Virus record (IMG/VR): IMGVR_UViG_3300045006_000207
Span: 1 to 24,884 of that record
Reading direction: 5' to 3' (one strand)
From: a virus
Length of the DNA: 24,884 nucleotides
A program made the translations under genes and the position numbers. The notes under the pieces are model-generated. The model made no database searches, had not been told where the DNA came from, and saw nothing but the letters and a program-made list of their open reading frames with translations. Positions 11,748-21,004 of this stretch are shown here, piece after piece; the first letter of the stretch is position 1, and each line of letters starts with the position of its first letter.

Positions 11748-12551
11748 TTAACTCGGTGTTCCCATTGAAATCCAGTATATTGTGGTATTAACGCCGTTGC
11801 TATTATAAACAGTGAACCCAGTCGTCGAAACTGCGGTTACATAACAATCATTAGTGGGCGGTATCCCGCTTGGATAATATTGGCTTACTACTACAATGGG
11901 GGCGGAATTATATGTAAAACTAAAATTAACATTTGCGGAACTTGTCGCATTAACGGCAACGCTACCGCTATCCAACCCCAAAGACGCCTTTGTAATGGAT
12001 ACCGTTTGCCAACTACCATCCCCTCTTAAAAAATTGCTTGATGAACCTGTGCCTGTCCCCAAATTGGCAACGGGAACTTGCCCCGCCCCAGAAGGAATGC
12101 TTGATAAAGATGTTACCGAAGCACCAGAAACCTTGCTTGCGGTTGTAATCTGGGCTAATTTGGTATCTACTATTGCCGCAGAAGCGTTTATGTCCGCATT
12201 GACGATTTCCCCATCCTTTATATCGCCTGTTAAAAGGGAACTTCCCAGCGATAACTTGGAATATACGATGGCGGCGGATGTTGATATATCGGCGTTGACT
12301 ATGGAATTATTCAAAGATAACTTGGAATAGGATATGGCGGCTGTGTTTGACAAATCCGCATCCACAATAGTTCCGTCCCTAAAAGTATCCACGCCAATAG
12401 TCAAATAATTATAAATATTATCCTCATTCTGGGTAACTTTTGCGGGGTCAATAATTTCTCCAGTAGTATAGGTGTAAGTCCGTGAAGGTGGAGCGGCGTA
12501 GAGGTTCGCTGCTAAACCAAAAACCAATAATGCAAAAAATATCTTTCTCAT
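11748..12551 (-). CDS. Secreted-type tail-fibre-like protein with tandem repeats (267 aa)
   Basis: The first 19 residues (MRKIFFALLV...NLYA) form a Sec signal peptide. The mature part opens APPSRTYTYTTGEIIDPAKVTQNEDNIYNYL, a known start of phage fibre shafts. Then come repeats of the kind 'IVDADLSNTAAISYSKLSL', 'SIVNADISTSAAIVYSKLSL' and 'EIVNADINASAAIVDTKLA', about 24 residues each, which form fibrous trimeric shafts. SSNFLRGDGSWQTV is the common fibre joint. The last 70 residues (VNFSFTYNSAPIVVVSQYYPSGI...TIYWISMGTPS) look like a small beta-sandwich of the H-type-lectin class, a possible receptor-binding tip. The ribosome binding site TAGGAG is present. It is probably a side fibre. Confidence 0.75.
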   Translation of the reverse strand: MRKIFFALLVFGLAANLYAAPPSRTYTYTTGEIIDPAKVTQNEDNIYNYLTIGVDTFRDGTIVDADLSNTAAISYSKLSLNNSIVNADISTSAAIVYSKLSLGSSLLTGDIKDGEIVNADINASAAIVDTKLAQITTASKVSGASVTSLSSIPSGAGQVPVANLGTGTGSSSNFLRGDGSWQTVSITKASLGLDSGSVAVNATSSANVNFSFTYNSAPIVVVSQYYPSGIPPTNDCYVTAVSTTGFTVYNSNGVNTTIYWISMGTPS

Positions 12552-12560
12552 AAATTACTC

Positions 12561-13250
12561 CTATTTGCTTTGTTCATATTTACTCCCGAAATCATCTATC
12601 TGATAATGAAAATCAATTTCCAATAATGCGGCGTCTTGTTCATACGTATCGTTTGCCGGATTTCTGAATAACCTGCAAACAAGCATACTTGAAACTTTCT
12701 TTCCGGTTCCGTCTATGTCGTCAAAATCCGAATATTTGCTTACCCACGCCGTTCCCCCCGCCTGCAATGCGGTAGAATTTATCGTTGTGGGGGCTGAAAA
12801 AGTCCCATCGGTATTCGCCCAAGTATATTCCAAAGACCAAACCACTGTTCCCGTGTTGGTGTCGATAGGCGTCCAGAGGATATGGGGATGAATGTTAGTT
12901 CCTTCTTTGTATCCGTGCGGAAGTTGTATCGTAAAATATGCCTGTTCGGTAGTGGCTGAACCATTAAATCCATATACCAATAGGTTTGTTGTTGCCGGGG
13001 CGAAGGCGATTAAATCCGGGGCGGTGGCATTTGTCTTTACCGCAAGTCCGGCAATCCTTATGTCGTCATACCTTACATCCGGTTGATACCTTCCGTTGGT
13101 AATATCCCATAATTTCTCAAGAGCGTCGTTTATTATTACCAACGCATTATGGTCAAAGTCGGTAATTCTTACCGGCTTGTTTATCCTTAAAGCATAAGCA
13201 TTGGTCAATAAAAGAAATCCTATGATTATTATTAAAATAAGTTTTTTCAA
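12561..13250 (-). CDS. Putative virion protein with signal peptide (229 aa, TTG start)
   Basis: The best start is the TTG at 13250, which overlaps the nozzle stop as TTGA and gives MKKLILIIIIGFLLLTNAYA, a clean Sec signal with cleavage after AYA. An earlier TTG at 13268 adds six residues. The mature part begins LRINKPVRITDFDHNALVIINDALEKLWDIT, a stretch common in phage fibre proteins, and contains TIQLPHGYKEGTNIHPHILWTP followed by VVWSLEYTWANTDGTF, a motif group I know from phage structural and tail proteins of unknown fold. The C-terminus LLEIDFHYQIDDFGS ends in beta strands. The role is probably tail or fibre attachment; a signal peptide on such a protein is unusual. Confidence 0.7.
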   Translation of the reverse strand: MKKLILIIIIGFLLLTNAYALRINKPVRITDFDHNALVIINDALEKLWDITNGRYQPDVRYDDIRIAGLAVKTNATAPDLIAFAPATTNLLVYGFNGSATTEQAYFTIQLPHGYKEGTNIHPHILWTPIDTNTGTVVWSLEYTWANTDGTFSAPTTINSTALQAGGTAWVSKYSDFDDIDGTGKKVSSMLVCRLFRNPANDTYEQDAALLEIDFHYQIDDFGSKYEQSK

Positions 13251-15124
13251 AATGAATCCAACCCCCAATAGATGACCGCATATCCCATTAAATCCATCGG
13301 TTCGTCAATGGATGGTTCATCAAACTTAAACTTGATAAACCTGCCTGAAACATTCAGGGGCAACCTTGTCAATGATGTCGCCATTCCCGCCCAGGTATCC
13401 GTTCCCCATATCGCCGTTCCCCATAAAGAACCGCTTGCGGTAGAAGCCAAGTCCAAACTTTCTATGGTGCTTGAAAAATCGGTTGCGTAATAAACCTGCA
13501 TAGTCGCCGAGGTCGCCGTAGTTGACCATACGAAAATTTCCCCATAATTCTTCCGTAACGGAGAAGAACCCATATCATACCATTTAGTCGTATAATATGC
13601 CGGAATGTCGCCTATGGAATACGCCGAAGTCGAATCCGGCGTAGTGGTAAATGTCGGATAAACAAGTATGCCGGTTACCGCAGAATTGCTATATAAAACC
13701 TGTGAGCCCGAAACATAAGTATCCATAATCCCGACAATGACCGCTTCCTCGCCAGAACCAGTGCCTGATGTTATCCTGACGATTGCCCCGGTAACATCAG
13801 TCAAGGTTGCGGAAGAATCATAAAGAACCTGAACTCCGCTTTCGGTATCCGACCAGTTGCTATCGACAGCGTCAACAATTCCGGTTTCACCCGCACAATC
13901 GCTATATAAATCTGCATCATTCATCTTATAGACAATCGAATAATAATTCCCGAAATAAACTTGCGGTATGGAATTTGCGTCATCCGCAATGCACATTGCG
14001 TTTGCGTCTATCTGGGTATGTTTTGACCACTCGCCTATGCCGTAATGGTAATCAAGCAATAAATTATTGTCATCAACCGCACCCGTTGTTACGGCAAGGT
14101 AATAATGGGAATTTACCCTGTCGTCCACCGCCACCGCATACTGCAACCTTGAAGCATATAGGTCATCCGTGGTAGTTTCAATAAGCGAGGAAATGTCCGT
14201 AACCTTGACGCCGTCAAGGAAGTTTATTGTCTTGTCCCTTGATAAAAATATAATCCCCTCGGAATTTCCTATGCCGATAGTCTTAACAGAGTTCTTGGCG
14301 ATACAGCCTATGCCCTCAGAAACCTTGCCGACATTTATCAATTCGTCCCCGCCGACCAACGAAACCTTATATATCGAGTCGGTAAGGAAAATATACAAAT
14401 CGTCATACAGGGTAGCCATCGCCTCTATCTGCTGACCGCCTTTCGTGGCAATATCCACATAATCGTTATCCGACCAGGTTTCAATAGTCCCGACATTAGA
14501 CCAGCGTATCCTTGTGGTATGGGCGGTAGAACCTTCCGTAGTATTGCCGAATATCAGGTAATTCTTCCACCACGCCACGCATTTTGCCTTTGTAACCGCA
14601 GATGACAGCCCAGTAAAACTTAAAGCAGAAGATGTTACCCCGTTTGTCTTTAAGGGCGGATTATACCCGTTTGTCCCTATGGCGTAATCCAAAGCCGAAG
14701 TCCAGATAAACTGATAATTCTGCCCCTCGGTAATAGTTGCCGAACCAGTAATGTCTGTTTTTACCCCTGCGGTTGAAACCGAGAATAACTTGCTTCCGCA
14801 AGTCGCCAACTTATACTTTGTCCCGCTTGAAAGATACAACTCATACAGACCGGTTACCGCCTCGTAAGAGTCAACCAAGTCAGTTGTATCAAGGATGCTG
14901 TGAAAAGCGTAGCCATAACGCTTTGACGCCTGCCCTGTATTATCAAGTGTGATATTTTGTATTGCCGCCGCACGCCCGTCCTTTACGATAGGCGGACTTG
15001 AAGTATCGTCAAGTCCTAAAAACACCTGCAATCCCTGTTCAGGAAATGTCTTTGCTTGTTCCTGTGCATTTGCATTACAAACCAAAGATAATGATAAAAG
15101 TAGTGTAAGAAATAATTTTTTCAT
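13247..15124 (-). CDS. Nozzle / tail-hub beta-propeller protein with N-terminal signal peptide (625 aa)
   Basis: After residue 21 the protein matches podovirus nozzle or stabilisation proteins: FLGLDDTSSPPIVKDGRAAAIQNITLDNTGQASKRYGY is the standard opening (a gene that lists residues around 'DG.A..AQN...D..G...KR.GY'). Repeated blades follow (LYELYLSSGTKYKLATCG; YDDLYIFLTDSIYKVSL; GIIFLSRDKTINFLDG; HYYLAVTTGAVDDNNLLLDYHYGIGEWS). The far C-terminus (RFIKFKFDEPSIDEPMDLMGYAVIY) is a beta domain. The surprise is the start: MKKLFLTLLLSLSLVCNANA is a perfect Sec signal peptide with cleavage expected after ANA (residue 20). The ATG is 4 nt after the adaptor stop. Its stop overlaps the next start as TTGA. 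The nozzle should form the tail gate below the adaptor. Confidence 0.78.
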   Translation of the reverse strand: MKKLFLTLLLSLSLVCNANAQEQAKTFPEQGLQVFLGLDDTSSPPIVKDGRAAAIQNITLDNTGQASKRYGYAFHSILDTTDLVDSYEAVTGLYELYLSSGTKYKLATCGSKLFSVSTAGVKTDITGSATITEGQNYQFIWTSALDYAIGTNGYNPPLKTNGVTSSALSFTGLSSAVTKAKCVAWWKNYLIFGNTTEGSTAHTTRIRWSNVGTIETWSDNDYVDIATKGGQQIEAMATLYDDLYIFLTDSIYKVSLVGGDELINVGKVSEGIGCIAKNSVKTIGIGNSEGIIFLSRDKTINFLDGVKVTDISSLIETTTDDLYASRLQYAVAVDDRVNSHYYLAVTTGAVDDNNLLLDYHYGIGEWSKHTQIDANAMCIADDANSIPQVYFGNYYSIVYKMNDADLYSDCAGETGIVDAVDSNWSDTESGVQVLYDSSATLTDVTGAIVRITSGTGSGEEAVIVGIMDTYVSGSQVLYSNSAVTGILVYPTFTTTPDSTSAYSIGDIPAYYTTKWYDMGSSPLRKNYGEIFVWSTTATSATMQVYYATDFSSTIESLDLASTASGSLWGTAIWGTDTWAGMATSLTRLPLNVSGRFIKFKFDEPSIDEPMDLMGYAVIYWGLDSF

Positions 15125-15128
15125 ATAT

Positions 15129-16139
15129 TTAGAAGTTTATCCCAAATTTAGTTCCGTAAGTTGCCTCCCCAAATTCAACAATACCACCGTGCGGAATGTT
15201 GTGGTTTTTAAAATGGGGCAGGTAATCTGGTTCTTGCATATCCGCCTTAATCATAGACTTAACGCCTGCTGCATACATCGCCTGCGTGGTATTAAATAAA
15301 CTTTCCTTATTCTGGTATTGATAAACTTTCGCCATAGTCCCAAGCCTGACCACCCAAATCCATTTCTCGTCTATGTCGGGGACATCAGTATCGTTTTCCA
15401 ACATCCTAATCCTTGTATAATATTCAAGATACAAAGAAGTCGCCGTGGTTACTATGGGATATATGCCTATGACTTTTGCCCTTACCGTTCTTTCCTCTGG
15501 TCCTAAAACCACCAATGTAGTCCCCCCAGAATGTTCGGTAACTGTAATATAACCAGTTGTCTTTGCGGACTTGGAAATCCTTAACGGCTTGTTTGCCACA
15601 TAAGTATTTGTTCCGTTAACAAGGGTTGTCCCGTTAAGGTTCAATTCCTCACTTTGGATATAACCGTTTGAATTGTAACCGACAATGGAAATTTTATAAG
15701 TGGAGGTATCGGAAGTTGAGGATGAAATTATATCAATCGTATCGGCTTCGGCAAGCCTTGTGGATACGCCTTCCTCCTCCCACAACCTGTAATAAAAAGG
15801 GCTTCCTGTAGCGGTAGGATTGGGAATATAACGATAAAATATCTCATCTGGAACATAAACGAGTTTTGAGGGGCTGTCAGTCTGGCGGATAAGCGAAATC
15901 TTGTCCAAATCCCGTGGTAGTTGTGCGGTTTCGGCGGATATGGACAATGTCGCCTTACGCCTTAAAAAAGTCCATAAGTGATTATATCCACCCTTGCCCA
16001 TCTGCTCGTAAGCCCAGGCAGGGTCATTCATCTCGCTAAGGGTAAAATTTATATATTCGTTTATATAACTGTCTATCTGTGTTTCTCTTGTGGTATTCTT
16101 TACCTCGTCACGGATTTCTTTTTTTGTCTTAACCGCCAT
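15129..16139 (-). CDS. Head-tail adaptor / tail tube protein (336 aa)
   Basis: The N-terminus is a helical segment MAVKTKKEIRDEVKNTTRETQIDSYINEYINFTLSEM..PAW, then RRKATLSISAETAQLPRDLDKISLIRQTDSPSKL, typical of adaptor proteins that sit under the portal (T7 gp11 and phage-adaptor type). The C-terminal part, SLYLEYYTRIRMLENDTDVPDIDEKWIWVVRLGTMAKVYQYQNKES, is the second conserved helical piece. Between them (about 130-225) lies a Thr/Ser/Gly-rich beta module (YKISIVGYNSNGYIQSEELN...GYITVTEH) that appears inserted. The ribosome binding site GAGGTG is inside the end of the ligase gene. The nozzle gene follows after 4 nt. In T7 gp11 likewise precedes the nozzle gp12. Confidence 0.75.
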   Translation of the reverse strand: MAVKTKKEIRDEVKNTTRETQIDSYINEYINFTLSEMNDPAWAYEQMGKGGYNHLWTFLRRKATLSISAETAQLPRDLDKISLIRQTDSPSKLVYVPDEIFYRYIPNPTATGSPFYYRLWEEEGVSTRLAEADTIDIISSSTSDTSTYKISIVGYNSNGYIQSEELNLNGTTLVNGTNTYVANKPLRISKSAKTTGYITVTEHSGGTTLVVLGPEERTVRAKVIGIYPIVTTATSLYLEYYTRIRMLENDTDVPDIDEKWIWVVRLGTMAKVYQYQNKESLFNTTQAMYAAGVKSMIKADMQEPDYLPHFKNHNIPHGGIVEFGEATYGTKFGINF

Positions 16140-17268
16140 TTAGCACCTCGTTATGAATTGTATAAATCCAGGCATATCCGATTATCGCCATAGAACCCGT
16201 AAGCCAAAGATGCGCTGGAAAATTCAATAAACTTAACACCAAAAAACCTGTAAATATTGAAGCCAATCTTATCGCCAAATCGTTTTTCCTTGCTTTCCAG
16301 AATACCCTGAAATATTCCCAAATGCCCCAAAAGATTATCCCCAAGCCTATTAAGCCTATTTCAACCGCCATCTGCAAATATTCCTGGTGTGCGTGCCGCC
16401 AATTTGAACCTTGTATTTTTATTTGCCAAGCCCCCACAGTCCCCAAGCCCCAGCCCGTAATGGGTTTTATAAAGAACTTGCCCCAAAGTATCTTCCAGAA
16501 ACCCATTCTTCCAGACAATGAAAAGAAAACTGGGTATTTAATCCATAGCAATATAATGGAGATTATAGAGATTACGCAAAATGACCATAATAACGCCCAT
16601 TTCTTTTTCATTGTTAGCCAGAACAACAGAACCGCTACCCCGCCCAAAACTCCCGACAAAGAACCGGTCAATAAAATTATTGTCCATAAAAGCAGTAACG
16701 GGAAAACTCCCTTTTTATTAAAGAACAACGGCTGGCATAACGCCAAATAACCCGCCAAGTGCGAGGAATTGCCTATTGTCCCGACCAATGCGTCGTCCCC
16801 TATATGCCCTAAATTTACTCCGCCCTTATCAAAGACCGCAGTATAAAACTGGTCTAAATTTAACTTTTGTAATACGCAATAAAACAAAATCACAATTACG
16901 CTATAAGACAGGTATTTTAATATCCGTTCTATGTTCTCGGTATCCAGATATTCCACGCTTAATTTGTAAAAAAACATAAAACACAGGAAATTAAAAAACG
17001 GAAGAAATATCTTTATGGCGTATGTCTGCCTGTCAACCAAAACCTGACCCCATACCACCGCCGTGATAATCCCCATCCACAAAATAAGCGATGCGAGGGG
17101 TTTATTCTGGATAAAATTATATTTCGGCTTTTCAATGAACGACCAACAGAATAAAAGCAAAATCCCGAACTGGAAAAACATTCCCTGTGCGTGCCAAATA
17201 TCGAATTTATTCAGGAGGAAATTAGCCCAAGGCAAACCGCACAGAAGCACCAAAAATAAATATGTCAT
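16129..17268 (-). CDS. O-antigen ligase / polymerase family membrane protein (Wzy_C-like), 379 aa
   Basis: The protein is polytopic with about ten or more hydrophobic helices (for example MTYLFLVLLCGLPW, FFNFLCFMFFYKL, LLLLWTIILLTGSLSGVLGGVAVLLFW). The O-antigen ligase/polymerase signature is in the large loop: SGRMGFWKI at 252-260, PITGWGLGTVGAW at 269-281, and RHAHQEYLQMAVEIGLIGLGIIF at 291-313, with His292/His294 at the place of the ligase's essential His. GTIGNSSHLAGYLA is the other conserved stretch. Family members transfer or polymerise undecaprenyl-linked glycan in the inner membrane. Here it lies inside a virion operon, ATGA-coupled to the lipoprotein and overlapping the head-tail adaptor gene by 11 nt. 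It probably remodels the host surface glycan; ligase versus polymerase cannot be told from sequence. Confidence 0.87.
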   Translation of the reverse strand: MTYLFLVLLCGLPWANFLLNKFDIWHAQGMFFQFGILLLFCWSFIEKPKYNFIQNKPLASLILWMGIITAVVWGQVLVDRQTYAIKIFLPFFNFLCFMFFYKLSVEYLDTENIERILKYLSYSVIVILFYCVLQKLNLDQFYTAVFDKGGVNLGHIGDDALVGTIGNSSHLAGYLALCQPLFFNKKGVFPLLLLWTIILLTGSLSGVLGGVAVLLFWLTMKKKWALLWSFCVISIISIILLWIKYPVFFSLSGRMGFWKILWGKFFIKPITGWGLGTVGAWQIKIQGSNWRHAHQEYLQMAVEIGLIGLGIIFWGIWEYFRVFWKARKNDLAIRLASIFTGFLVLSLLNFPAHLWLTGSMAIIGYAWIYTIHNEVLNGG

Positions 17269-17486
17269 TTATAATACTTTTCGTAACAACGCCAGCAGAT
17301 TTTCCTATTCTTATTATCTATTTTAAAGGTCGTGGTTGGCTTACGGCATTTGTGGCAAACCGCATTTCCCCAATAATAAGCATAAGCCATACCGCCGTGT
17401 CCCATCATATTTCCTTCCGGGTAAAACTTTAAAGAAGATGCACAACCAGCCAAAAACAAAAGTAAAATAATAAATAAATATCTCAT
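17265..17486 (-). CDS. Small lipoprotein with zinc-ribbon motif (73 aa)
   Basis: From the ATG at 17486 the protein starts MRYLFIILLLFLAGC, a type II signal with lipobox LAGC; Cys15 would be lipidated, and Ala at +2 suits outer-membrane sorting. The mature 59 residues hold Gly/Met/Tyr-rich sequence (MMGHGGMAYAYYWG) and then two CxxC knuckles, CHKC at 44-47 and CWRC at 64-67, a zinc-ribbon or rubredoxin-like pair. The upstream frame is open but lacks a plausible start and would bury the signal, so the internal ATG is chosen. The stop TGA overlaps the ATG of the O-antigen ligase gene (ATGA). Small phage lipoproteins such as T5 Llp and Cor block superinfection at outer-membrane receptors; a similar role here is inference. 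Confidence 0.75.
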   Translation of the reverse strand: MRYLFIILLLFLAGCASSLKFYPEGNMMGHGGMAYAYYWGNAVCHKCRKPTTTFKIDNKNRKICWRCYEKYYK

Positions 17487-17489
17487 AAT

Positions 17490-17517
17490 AAAGACAAAAG
17501 GGCGGATTGCTCCGCCC
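17490..17517 (-). terminator. Intrinsic terminator after the capsid block
   Basis: On the minus strand GGGCGGA-GCAA-TCCGCCC forms a perfect 7-bp GC-rich stem capped by a GNRA tetraloop, followed by TTTTGTCTTTATT. It lies 12 nt after the stop of the 183-aa gene and only 3 nt before the next ATG. The location matches the T7 T-phi terminator after its capsid gene. Some read-through must occur if downstream genes lack their own promoter. Confidence 0.88.
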
Positions 17518-17529
17518 AATTTGTTGCTG

Positions 17530-18081
17530 TTAATTTGCACAAGTAGTCGGGTTAACATAGATGAGCGACATATCGGCATCGGCATCGCCGCCAATATCGT
17601 TTCCTGCCGCAGAAGCCTTGATAACCACGCCCAACATTGCTGTATCGCCGCCTGAAATACTTTCATCCTCAACATAACCGTTTGTGGATGAAGCGCAAAT
17701 CGTGTTCACTGTCAGAGCTGTTCCCTGACTTCCCCTGAATACAACAGCCGGACCCTTGATAACAATTTGTCCTGTTGAACCACTGGCAATATCTTGCCCC
17801 ATCGGGACAACGCCTGCTGTCCAAACATCATCATTACCATCGCATTTTTTTACCCAGGGTAATGTATCGTCATATACTGTTCCTGCATTGGAATCTGATG
17901 TATCAAAATCCCATTCCACCACATAACAGGACGGGATAGTTGAAGTAGTACCGTTATACACGGTTTCAGTCCATACCACTGGATAACTCTTTGGGTCAAC
18001 TGATTGGGGTATTCCTGTCGCATTGGCAATTCCATAAGAGAATAAGACTGCCAAAGCGATGAGCAATAATTTCTTCATCAT
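17530..18081 (-). CDS. Capsid-adjacent protein with Sec signal peptide; possible head decoration protein (183 aa)
   Basis: The gene follows the capsid gene with the ribosome binding site TAGGAGG. Position and the C-terminal half (SGSTGQIVIKGPAVVF, AMLGVVIKASAAGNDIGGDADADMSLIYV) suit a small beta-barrel capsid cement or decoration protein of the DUF2190-like kind. Oddly, it begins with a textbook signal peptide: MMKKLLL, a hydrophobic core, then YGIANA with cleavage expected after Ala21. The mature part has four cysteines (52, 80, 129, 181), an even number that would suit disulfides in an oxidising compartment. Either a capsid-associated protein is exported, or this is a secreted protein that has settled beside the capsid gene. 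A strong terminator follows the stop codon. Confidence 0.7.
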   Translation of the reverse strand: MMKKLLLIALAVLFSYGIANATGIPQSVDPKSYPVVWTETVYNGTTSTIPSCYVVEWDFDTSDSNAGTVYDDTLPWVKKCDGNDDVWTAGVVPMGQDIASGSTGQIVIKGPAVVFRGSQGTALTVNTICASSTNGYVEDESISGGDTAMLGVVIKASAAGNDIGGDADADMSLIYVNPTTCAN

Positions 18082-18090
18082 TTTAGCCTC

Positions 18091-19047
18091 CTATCCTGAA
18101 ATGGTTGTGATAACGCCATTGGTTCTGCGAGAACCAGTGGTTAAATTGCCAATTAAATACATCAATGCGGTTCTTGATAACTGGTTGTGGCTCGGTTGAA
18201 AAGGCGTAACTTCCATATTGCCCTTTGAGAGAACCTGCAACCAAAGACTGTCCGTATCGACCATATATAAATGAGCCGACGGGCAGTTGTCATCAAATAA
18301 AACCGGCATCGTGGTATATGCGAGATGCAAGAACCCGGCATCCGCTAATTCGGTAGTCGCATAGCGGATTTGACCTGTTAAGCCAATCTCGTATAAACCA
18401 TAAACCGTCTTTGTCGTAATAACGCACCTCGGTCCTCTTGCACCAAAAGTGCAGCTATTCAACAAAGAATTCATTGCGGTTAAACCTTCGTTGCTCGTAT
18501 TGAATCTGGTAACAGTGTTGGTATCAACCTGATTTCTCCAATACGAATAACTGCTTGGGTTTATCCCGCCTACATCGGTCTGGGTGGAAGGAGTATCGGA
18601 AACAAGATTTTGTAATCCGTCAAAATCCTTATCCGCTAAACCATCTTTCCAAACCTGGTCTCCCAGAACTTCCGACATCGAGAGTTCCGCCGCCATCCTT
18701 ACTTCATCTGCTAAATCAAGCAACTTTTCCCTATCGCCGGCGTTCATCGCTTCTTCAACCGTTGAGATAACCAAAGAACCCGCAACGGTCTTGATTGGAT
18801 ATTCCGCCCTTGTTATGTCATCCATAATCGGAGTGTCAATAACATCCAATTTGGCATAGGATTTGAAACTTGTATTTACCAAATAGTAAAGAGGATGCGT
18901 CAATGCTCTACCGCCGCTAACTACCCTAATATTATCCCGCTTTTTAAGCATATACAAAAAGGCGTTATTGGTGGTGATATTGTCAAATATCTCTTTGCCG
19001 TGATTCTGGAGAGTAACCGTAGCAACCCTATCAAAAGATGTGTTCAT
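18091..19047 (-). CDS. Major capsid protein (318 aa)
   Basis: This is the likely HK97-fold shell protein. It follows the scaffold and opens with a helix (VATVTLQNHGKEIFDNITTNNAF). Then come a strand-rich stretch with RVVSGGRALTHPL and YAKLDVIDTPIMDDIT, an E-loop-like region, and a long spine-helix candidate (NAGDREKLLDLADEVRMAAELSMSEVLGDQVW). The P/A-domain-like part includes EGLTAMNSLLN, RCVITTKTVYGLYE and VLFDDNCPSAHLYMVDTDSLWL. The C-terminus (ALMYLIGNLTTGSRRTNGVIT) resembles ends of podovirus capsid proteins. The length is slightly short but within range. GAGAGGG precedes the ATG, and the stop TAG runs into the GGAGG of the next gene. Confidence 0.85.
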   Translation of the reverse strand: MNTSFDRVATVTLQNHGKEIFDNITTNNAFLYMLKKRDNIRVVSGGRALTHPLYYLVNTSFKSYAKLDVIDTPIMDDITRAEYPIKTVAGSLVISTVEEAMNAGDREKLLDLADEVRMAAELSMSEVLGDQVWKDGLADKDFDGLQNLVSDTPSTQTDVGGINPSSYSYWRNQVDTNTVTRFNTSNEGLTAMNSLLNSCTFGARGPRCVITTKTVYGLYEIGLTGQIRYATTELADAGFLHLAYTTMPVLFDDNCPSAHLYMVDTDSLWLQVLSKGNMEVTPFQPSHNQLSRTALMYLIGNLTTGSRRTNGVITTISG

Positions 19048-19893: not shown

Positions 19894-20136
19894 TTAACTC
19901 GGTGATGGTATCATTCTTATCGGGTGTTGCCCCGTGGCTATTTTTTTCAACCCTTCGCTTTCCGCAAACGCTTGGTCAAGCGTGTATTCTTTTGCTTCTT
20001 CTTTTTTTTCTTCAATTTTCTGTTCTCCTTGCATTTGTAGGGTATGCAGTAAAAGAAACATAATCGCCTGCATCAAATAATTATTTCCGTCTTTTACCTG
20101 CCCTATCTGGTTAATTAAACTTTCCTGTAATGACAT
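19894..20136 (-). CDS. Hypothetical protein (80 aa)
   Basis: The sequence has a helical N-terminal half (LQESLINQIGQVKDGNNYLMQAIMFLLLHTLQ) in which the hydrophobic patch is short and interrupted, so it is more likely an amphipathic oligomerisation helix than a membrane anchor. A Glu/Lys linker (EQKIEEKKEEAKEY) and a short tail ending in PIRMIPSPS follow. It is coupled to the glycosyltransferase by a TAATG overlap and lies 64 nt before the scaffold gene. I recognise no family. Position before the scaffold suggests a head-assembly accessory protein, but nothing in the sequence proves that. Confidence 0.65.
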   Translation of the reverse strand: MSLQESLINQIGQVKDGNNYLMQAIMFLLLHTLQMQGEQKIEEKKEEAKEYTLDQAFAESEGLKKIATGQHPIRMIPSPS

Positions 20137-20822
20137 TAAAATCTCCTGAATAACCTGTTTGCCTGCTTATGGTAAATAACCGGGTTTCCTACTTTGGTAA
20201 TACCGTCCATATAACAATAACTATCCGGCAAATAATGGACGCTCATAATCTTTGCCTCTTGGTAAAAACTCCTTACGGCGCTTCTTAAATGCGCCTGTTC
20301 CCAATTATTCGGGTATATCCTTGTGCGGTTGACCCATGCATCAACCATCCTTAAAACCACTGGCGTATATCTTAAAAATACCGTCCCCGACTTAACGGTA
20401 TCCCTTGATGGCGTATAAATGTTCTCATCGTAAAAAGCCACATCTTCCTCAATGAAATCAAAATAAAACGGGTAGCGTTTCACTATTGCGTCGGCATCAA
20501 GCCATACCACACATTTCTTGTGTTTTTCCAACTTTTGTTTGATAAAGGCGGGTTTCATAGAAGTATTTTCCCACCAACCGCCCTTATCCTCTGCCCTGTC
20601 AATTTCATAAGGAAGATTAAACTTTTTCAAAGAACTTATTAAATCTTTTACAATGTCTGCGTAATTGTCGGTATAGAAAGAAACAACGATGTAATCGTTT
20701 TTCCCAAACCCTCGTTGTCGGGATAACCTTCTATCGTCAGATAACACGGGGCTTGTTTTATCCCCAAGTTCCTTAACGCCTGTATTCTTTGGTTTCCCTG
20801 GAATATCCTTAACTGATGCCAT
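20136..20822 (-). CDS. Putative glycosyltransferase (GT-A type, DxD), possibly expressed by -1 frameshift
   Basis: The protein reads as a small nucleotide-diphospho-sugar transferase. It has a first beta strand YIVVSFYTDNY at residues 44-54, a MKPAFIKQKL helix, then CVVWLDADAIV with the metal-binding DxD at 109-111, and a closing segment IYHKQANRLFRRF that resembles the His/Arg end seen in phage GT-A proteins. The recognisable domain begins at about residue 42. The first 41 residues (MASVKD...QRGFG) overlap the ParB-like gene in another frame and look like a shadow. Two expression routes fit: an ATG at 20822 with a modest GGAAG ribosome binding site, or -1 slippage on GGGAAAA from the ParB-like frame. 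The acceptor could be capsid protein, DNA or host glycan. The stop overlaps the next ATG (TAATG). Confidence 0.68.
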   Translation of the reverse strand: MASVKDIPGKPKNTGVKELGDKTSPVLSDDRRLSRQRGFGKNDYIVVSFYTDNYADIVKDLISSLKKFNLPYEIDRAEDKGGWWENTSMKPAFIKQKLEKHKKCVVWLDADAIVKRYPFYFDFIEEDVAFYDENIYTPSRDTVKSGTVFLRYTPVVLRMVDAWVNRTRIYPNNWEQAHLRSAVRSFYQEAKIMSVHYLPDSYCYMDGITKVGNPVIYHKQANRLFRRF

Positions 20823-21004
20823 AGGGTTTCTTCCAAAAGTAAATTTATCTCCAAGGGGTCTTTCATCCCGTTAACCCTTATATCCTCGGTTAACAAAGTA
20901 ACCGCCTTGCCGCCATCACGAGGAAATGAAATCTGGGTCAAATCATCCAAGTTCAGAAGGAACGGACCAAACCTCTTTTTCCAGGTAGGTTCGCCATTAC
21001 GCAT
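20648..21004 (-). CDS. ParB/Srx-fold (ParB N-terminal-like) domain protein
   Basis: Residues about 35-92 fit the ParB N-terminal / sulfiredoxin fold: LLTEDIRVNGMKDPLEI gives the first strand-helix, and LRIFQGNQRIQALRNLGI carries the GNQR turn at the place of the ParB GERR motif, followed by a final strand APCYLTIEG. In this family the fold binds nucleotide (CTP in true ParB) or acts as a nuclease; here the substrate is unknown. The ORF as read ends at 118 aa, but the last 16 residues (TITSLFLSIP...) do not look like domain sequence. At codons 101-102 the mRNA reads G-GGA-AAA, a -1 slippery heptamer, and the -1 frame there enters the glycosyltransferase domain. The free form and a 289-aa fusion may both be made. 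Confidence 0.72.
   Translation of the reverse strand: MRNGEPTWKKRFGPFLLNLDDLTQISFPRDGGKAVTLLTEDIRVNGMKDPLEINLLLEETLWHQLRIFQGNQRIQALRNLGIKQAPCYLTIEGYPDNEGLGKTITSLFLSIPTITQTL
20699..20705 (-). other. Candidate -1 ribosomal frameshift site GGGAAAA
   Basis: Read in the ParB-like frame the bases are TTG GGA AAA ACG, so the heptamer is phased G-GGA-AAA, the X-XXY-YYZ arrangement used for -1 slippage (lambda gpG/gpGT uses GGGAAAG). After slipping, the ribosome reads GGG AAA AAC GAT and enters the glycosyltransferase frame two residues before its first beta strand. A perfect 6-bp hairpin (AACGAT-TAC-ATCGTT, 20685-20699) follows but is closer than a normal stimulator. An assembly indel in the five-A run remains possible. 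Confidence 0.45.

Follow-up and report, generated by a model that had tools for sequence, protein, structure and literature searches.

Wzy_C-family gene among virion proteins with predicted export signals in an uncultured podovirus clade

A gene for a Wzy_C-family membrane protein, lying between the head and tail genes of a viral contig, belongs to the core virion-morphogenesis genes of an uncultured podovirus clade. Export signals are predicted on the outer-shell and tail proteins encoded around it, and thus the virus may send parts of its particle out through the host inner membrane and have them coated in host sugar. We give close to an even chance to the reading that the Wzy_C protein transfers host lipid-linked glycan onto Sec-exported surface virion proteins, in a manner similar to PglL. 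The fuller proposal of a two-compartment virion, with Sec-exported decoration, nozzle, and fibre proteins, periplasmic disulfides, and O-glycosylation by an obligate Wzy_C enzyme that draws on host lipid-linked glycan, is put forward more tentatively.

The window, which is the whole stretch of DNA analysed here, is an IMG/VR record of 24,884 bases and holds a partial podovirus virion operon, which, like all window features described below, lies on the minus strand. The operon order is terminase, SU10/P22-like portal, scaffold-like protein, capsid, the region of interest, SU10-type adaptor, nozzle, fibres, and ejection proteins. The region of interest is thus bounded by the genes for the major capsid protein (18091..19047; PHROG 9953, E 4.6e-53) and the SU10-type head-tail adaptor (15129..16139; PF24175, E 7.7e-12). 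The phage had been described as T7-like, a label that was dropped in favor of an Mx8/SU10-like podovirus: the adaptor and portal match those of SU10 (E 8e-12 and E 1e-15, respectively), and the closest annotated capsids are those of Mx8, Mx9, BUCT555, and Bradyrhizobium ppBjS10J-1. Mx8, Mx9, BUCT555, and Ruegeria 45A6 have capsids about 27-31% identical to that of the window and a similar capsid, adaptor, nozzle, and GNAT-like gene order; however, no Wzy_C gene was found near the capsid in these Mx8-like podoviruses.

The Wzy_C-family protein and its lipoprotein partner

The initial annotation described a small lipoprotein gene with two CxxC motifs and a gene for a membrane enzyme with a Wzy_C/WaaL signature, overlapping at ATGA on the minus strand between the head and tail genes of the virion operon. 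Both open reading frames (17265..17486 and 16129..17268), as well as their overlap and placement, hold. The larger (16129..17268) encodes a polytopic membrane glycosyltransferase of 379 aa that is, by profile match, a member of the Wzy_C family (Pfam PF04932, E 5.6e-9), with a score of 36.4 bits where the curated cut-off is 31.7. PF04932 was matched at E <= 0.1 by all 11 family members tested and scored above the curated cut-off in 7/9 contigs, while the family profile retrieved the WaaL structure 7tpg (E 0.0018), and the Wzy_C signature is in this way confirmed. The window protein also contains HQEYLQMAVEIGLIG, which fits the WaaL motif H[NSQ]x9Gxx[GTY]. Foldseek comparison of its AF2 model (pLDDT 76) returned FtsW (8p1u) and RodA (6pl5, 8tj3) with probabilities of 0.99-1.0, TM scores of 0.41-0.50, and weak E-values of 0.02-0.05, a resemblance that is consistent with, but weak evidence for, the same fold class (GT-C_B/SEDS-like). 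Three INPHARED queries for relatives of the protein in cultured phages returned none.

Twelve residues are invariant in 33/33 relatives, namely Q134, G163, H170, R254, W258, G272, G274, G276, H294, E296, E303, and G305. Loops rich in K/R alternate with loops bearing H170, R254-H294, and H353, and by the positive-inside rule the latter loops would therefore be periplasmic. R254 and H294, each conserved in 33/33, fit R288 and H338 of WaaL (E. coli numbering), and the HMM alignment to the Wzy_C domain of Cupriavidus metallidurans WaaL (7tpg) spans the catalytic region with its R..W and H.H motifs. The WaaL catalytic set of R215, R288, and H338 appears incomplete at the R215-type (TGSR-type) position, where no conserved Arg occurs in block 196-210 as placed by our own reading of the alignment; unlike WaaL 7tpg, the phage protein appears to be without the Arg of the TGTRGA-type segment. 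The phage gene differs from that of WaaL also in sitting in a virion operon, beside virion proteins with predicted export.

Like PglL, PilO, and TfpO, the phage protein belongs to the Wzy_C family, conserves a G-x-G at R+18/+20, and has a His in its last periplasmic loop. The invariant G272 and G274 match by spacing the PglL-specific residues G316/G318, which are likewise at R+18/+20 (PMC3643930). A further likeness is the exported acceptor candidate encoded alongside, which is typical but not universal for PglL; most of 31 candidate genes of the PglL family lie beside possible targets, 21 of them beside pilins (PMC3643930). The same adjacency is seen here, with the decoration gene directly upstream in 30/30 contigs, whether of the Wzy_C gene itself or of the lipoprotein-Wzy_C pair, although the candidate acceptors are phage decoration and tail proteins as opposed to pilins. 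The PglL_A HMM (PF15864) matched none of the 11 members, and PilO, a true O-OTase, is also without the PglL_A motifs (PMC3643930). Regarded as a WaaL, then, the protein seems to miss an Arg, and regarded as a PglL, it is unmatched by PglL_A; it may nevertheless work like PglL.

The smaller gene (17265..17486) encodes a lipoprotein of 73 aa with an SPII lipobox (LAGC, within LFLAGC/A) followed by CxxC...CxxC, in agreement with the earlier description. The proposed zinc-ribbon homology was set aside, as only weak CxxC matches were found (GATA, ribosomal S31; E 0.004-0.1) and these were put down to composition. In one relative (L007), the lipoprotein retains C44 and C67, the outer cysteines, but has lost both inner ones together, and periplasmic disulfide pairs would fit this loss at least as well as zinc. 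The gene is a lineage-restricted partner of Wzy_C, being present in 21/30 capsid-sampled contigs and missing in 9/30, such that the pairing anticipated in related phages stands for the former and fails for the latter. Between the decoration gene and the lipoprotein gene lies a GC-rich, terminator- or attenuator-like hairpin with a T tract (17500..17517). A similar hairpin is found in 15/22 relatives between the decoration gene and the lipoprotein or Wzy_C gene, and it could perhaps act as an attenuator that lowers expression of the membrane protein.

Conservation of the Wzy_C gene within the virion operon

Relatives were gathered from IMG/VR by capsid, a sampling that is independent of the Wzy_C gene. 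The order of capsid, decoration-type gene, and Wzy_C was found in 30/30 contigs covering the interval, followed by adaptor and nozzle in those contigs that run on, and sampling by nozzle instead of capsid recovered the same clade. Distances in Wzy_C and capsid are correlated (Mantel r 0.70), more so than those in capsid and nozzle (0.49), and the dN/dS of Wzy_C is mostly 0.10-0.20 in informative pairs, indicative of purifying selection. In the recombinant pair L056/L077, the Wzy_C and nozzle proteins are 86% and 92% identical, respectively, as opposed to 41% for the capsid, and thus Wzy_C travels with the tail module that is predicted to be exported. The earlier suggestion of a moron-like module or superinfection-exclusion cassette, which implies a patchy accessory gene, was rejected on these grounds: Wzy_C occupies the same place in every contig, co-diversifies with the capsid, and is under purifying selection, with only the lipoprotein gene showing patchy presence (21/30).

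Signal peptides on outer virion proteins

Directly downstream of the capsid gene is a gene (17530..18081) that was absent from the initial annotation and is as important as the pair. Its product combines a predicted Sec/SPI signal peptide (MMKKLLLIALAVLFSYGIANA/TGIPQ) with a beta-rich domain behind it (AF2 pLDDT 85.5), for which Foldseek returned the phi29 gp8.5 base and the Pam3, T1, HFTV1, and lambda gpD capsid proteins and, among predicted viral structures, also many fibre-like and DUF2190 proteins. The predicted fold is therefore of the head-decoration type, like that of the phi29 gp8.5 head fibre base and the Pam3, T1, and HFTV1 decoration proteins, but the protein differs from these in bearing a Sec signal peptide. 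Signals are also predicted on a tail nozzle or stabilization-type protein (13247..15124; MKKLFLTLLLSLSLVCNANA/QEQAK), whose profile matches the podophage structural chain 9nwi_Y (E 2.1e-5) and, weakly, nozzle gp16 (8zkk), and which by tblastn matches phage "stabilization/virion structural" proteins. A small tail-region protein (12561..13268; R.PKP..ITDF...L..LN..LE.LW), whose gene comes after the nozzle gene in relatives that extend that far, is predicted to bear one as well, as is a fibre-like protein (11748..12551; APPSRTYTYTTGE...NEDNIYNYL) with a weak H-type lectin match that falls below the cut-off (PF09458, E 0.0044).

Signal peptides were called with a home-made scorer, which on calibration with E. 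coli proteins was positive for 16/17 secreted and 1/57 cytoplasmic proteins (mqo). They were called in 31/32 decoration proteins, 25/29 nozzles, and most small tail and fibre proteins, as opposed to 0/29 capsids, 0/29 proteins in the adaptor slot, and 7/158 products of genes before the capsid. By this calibrated scorer, 56/61 decoration and nozzle proteins possess an n-h-c signal and an AxA site, compared with 0/58 capsids and adaptors (Fisher 2e-28, a value that overstates independence because the sequences counted are related). The four nozzles without a signal (4/29) may include truncated or misread starts. Outside the clade, signal-like N-termini occur in 5/76 post-capsid ORFs, including those of the Mx8-like podoviruses, which is background, and six nozzle homologues are without a signal. 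A Shine-Dalgarno-like site accompanies 25/32 decoration signal starts vs. 7/76 downstream starts; the corresponding counts at nozzles (7/26 vs. 3/52) lend weak support. Mature decoration proteins contain 2.3 Cys per 100 aa, with an even number in 20/25, as would be expected of proteins in an oxidising compartment. From sequence, Sec export of the decoration, nozzle, small tail, and fibre proteins is strongly predicted.

Two relatives encode LamG/concanavalin-A-like lectins with apparent signal peptides 3' of the ejection proteins (L124:3903-4745 in G010, Pfam E 1.8e-24; L119:2601-3428 in G007, Pfam E 7e-17). In the window, an ORF at 2-388, cut by the window end, has a signal-peptide-like N-terminus and no Pfam match.

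Proposed glycan transfer and alternative explanations

The scheme that we infer, which extends from export in life and glycan transfer to the donor and the place of head-tail joining, would begin with passage of the decoration, nozzle, small tail, and fibre proteins to the periplasm via Sec, a step that is well supported by prediction. Portal, scaffold, capsid, adaptor, and ejection proteins would remain cytoplasmic. With the outer parts in the periplasm and the head in the cytoplasm, the DNA-filled head would meet the outer parts only where the compartments join, whether at the inner membrane itself or once that membrane has been opened by the holin. In the second step, which is also supported, Wzy_C would reside in the inner membrane and turn its conserved Arg/His loops, which show an active-site-like pattern, towards the periplasm. 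In the third and more speculative step, it would move host glycan onto the exported virion proteins, beginning with the decoration protein, in a PglL/PilO-like reaction whose outcome would be a particle coated in host sugar. PglL-type genes commonly adjoin the gene for their exported acceptor, and it is for this reason that we propose that the phage enzyme sugars exported virion proteins. As for the donor, the G010 contig has a 127-bp end repeat that suggests a complete genome, and no other evident glycan gene was seen among its ORFs read by eye or scanned; the donor would thus be the host undecaprenyl-linked glycan.

The main rival explanation is that Wzy_C acts on the host surface as a late O-antigen or capsule ligase or polymerase, changing the receptor and thereby keeping superinfecting phages from adsorbing or progeny from sticking to debris. 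The lipoprotein would then help in this or would block a receptor, and the exported virion proteins would be a separate matter. Phage-encoded seroconversion enzymes such as the D3-type Wzy and Gtr are well-known membrane enzymes of surface glycans, and membership in the Wzy_C family, the H[NSQ]x9Gxx[GTY] motif, and a diderm-type lipoprotein all suit such a role. However, seroconversion genes are typically patchy and accessory or lysogenic, whereas Wzy_C is here a universal, core gene of the virion operon that co-diversifies with virion genes, is encoded among virion proteins with export signals, and moves with the tail module; the exclusion-like lipoprotein is, moreover, missing in 9/30 contigs. 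The signal peptides on neighbouring virion proteins, to which the initial annotation made no reference, make those proteins a likelier substrate than the host surface, and we consider host-surface remodelling the less likely explanation.

Glycan transfer onto virion proteins also finds some support in a second, distant podovirus lineage. A scan for distant relatives recovered a divergent podovirus (L136, G020) with a Wzy_C gene elsewhere in its genome (family E 5e-14) and a signal peptide on its post-capsid protein, and its relative G022 has both Wzy_C and such a signal. In G021, the capsid is 59% identical to that of G020 and the post-capsid protein is a homologue of its counterpart (E 4e-10) without the signal; no Wzy_C was detected in this 27.9-kb fragment, and neither Wzy_C nor a post-capsid signal was found in G025 (43.9 kb). 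The G021 contig, without detected Wzy_C, encodes a 1203-aa fibre with a signal peptide (L142, 11955-15566). In this lineage the nozzle has no export signal, and Wzy_C adjoins neither the decoration gene nor the adaptor. The unexported nozzle, the distant Wzy_C gene, and the exported fibre of G021 indicate that export does not strictly go together with Wzy_C. Four contigs, of which G021 is clearly incomplete, suggest that the association of Wzy_C with the signal was gained or lost on more than one occasion. In the main clade, the gain of Wzy_C and that of the signals may be a single event, to which the second lineage adds two positives.

An alternative role for Wzy_C is that of an assembly factor, a membrane anchor or docking platform that joins cytoplasmic heads to exported tail parts and for which catalysis is secondary. 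Its gene adjoins the adaptor gene, upstream of the nozzle gene in relatives reaching that far, and Wzy_C and export co-occur in two lineages, but this arrangement is not kept in the second lineage, where Wzy_C is not beside the adaptor. The 12 invariant residues in 33 divergent sequences, with R254, H170, H294, and E296 among them, suggest chemistry rather than docking, and an assembly factor is in our view improbable. It is more doubtful still that the N-terminal hydrophobic segments are membrane-targeting or autoprocessed tails of virions assembled wholly in the cytoplasm: although the open-access papers searched gave no tailed phage with exported shell and tail proteins, the segments have textbook n/h/c regions and AxA sites with scores like those of ompA/ompF, are shared by decoration proteins, nozzles, fibres, and LamG lectins, which are unrelated to one another, and are absent from homologues outside the clade; the mature decoration proteins are, in addition, enriched in cysteine.

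To our knowledge, the cytoplasm is regarded as the place where tailed-phage virions assemble, and Sec export, if true, would be an exception to this rule, raising the questions of where head and tail are joined, how lysis is timed relative to assembly, and whether the particle bears host sugar. A phage-encoded transferase that used a host lipid-linked donor on virion proteins would represent a novel means of disguising or aiming the phage particle, and possibly a tool for glycan display. The open-access literature search returned nothing on exported virion proteins or phage oligosaccharyltransferases. The Wzy_C family, phage seroconversion enzymes, and a proposed glycosylation of mycobacteriophage virions are known already; a tailed phage with predicted Sec-signalled outer virion proteins around an apparently obligate, periplasm-facing transferase is without a known match in that literature. 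The virion-glycosylating enzymes of mycobacteriophages are, as far as we know, cytosolic. Phage-encoded glycosyltransferases have been proposed to glycosylate the mycobacteriophage capsid, with neither virion Sec signals nor a Wzy_C-type transferase described in the abstract, in which the present phage differs (PMC11256854).

Further searches covered other features of these genomes. An Rfam search of the window gave no match, a PADLOC search for anti-phage defence gave none worth the name, a scan of the contigs of three relatives detected no tRNA, and GTDB contigs scanned with the capsid and nozzle profiles for a host link yielded no relative. The portal-scaffold slot of the window holds a gene for an accessory nucleotide-sugar transferase (20136..20822; PF03407, E 9.7e-7, above the cut-off), which was not seen in the ORF lists of most relatives, and a ParB-like ORF (20648-21004; PHROG 620, E 9e-4) overlaps it. 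A weak GT2 match is found in the same slot of another contig (L011).
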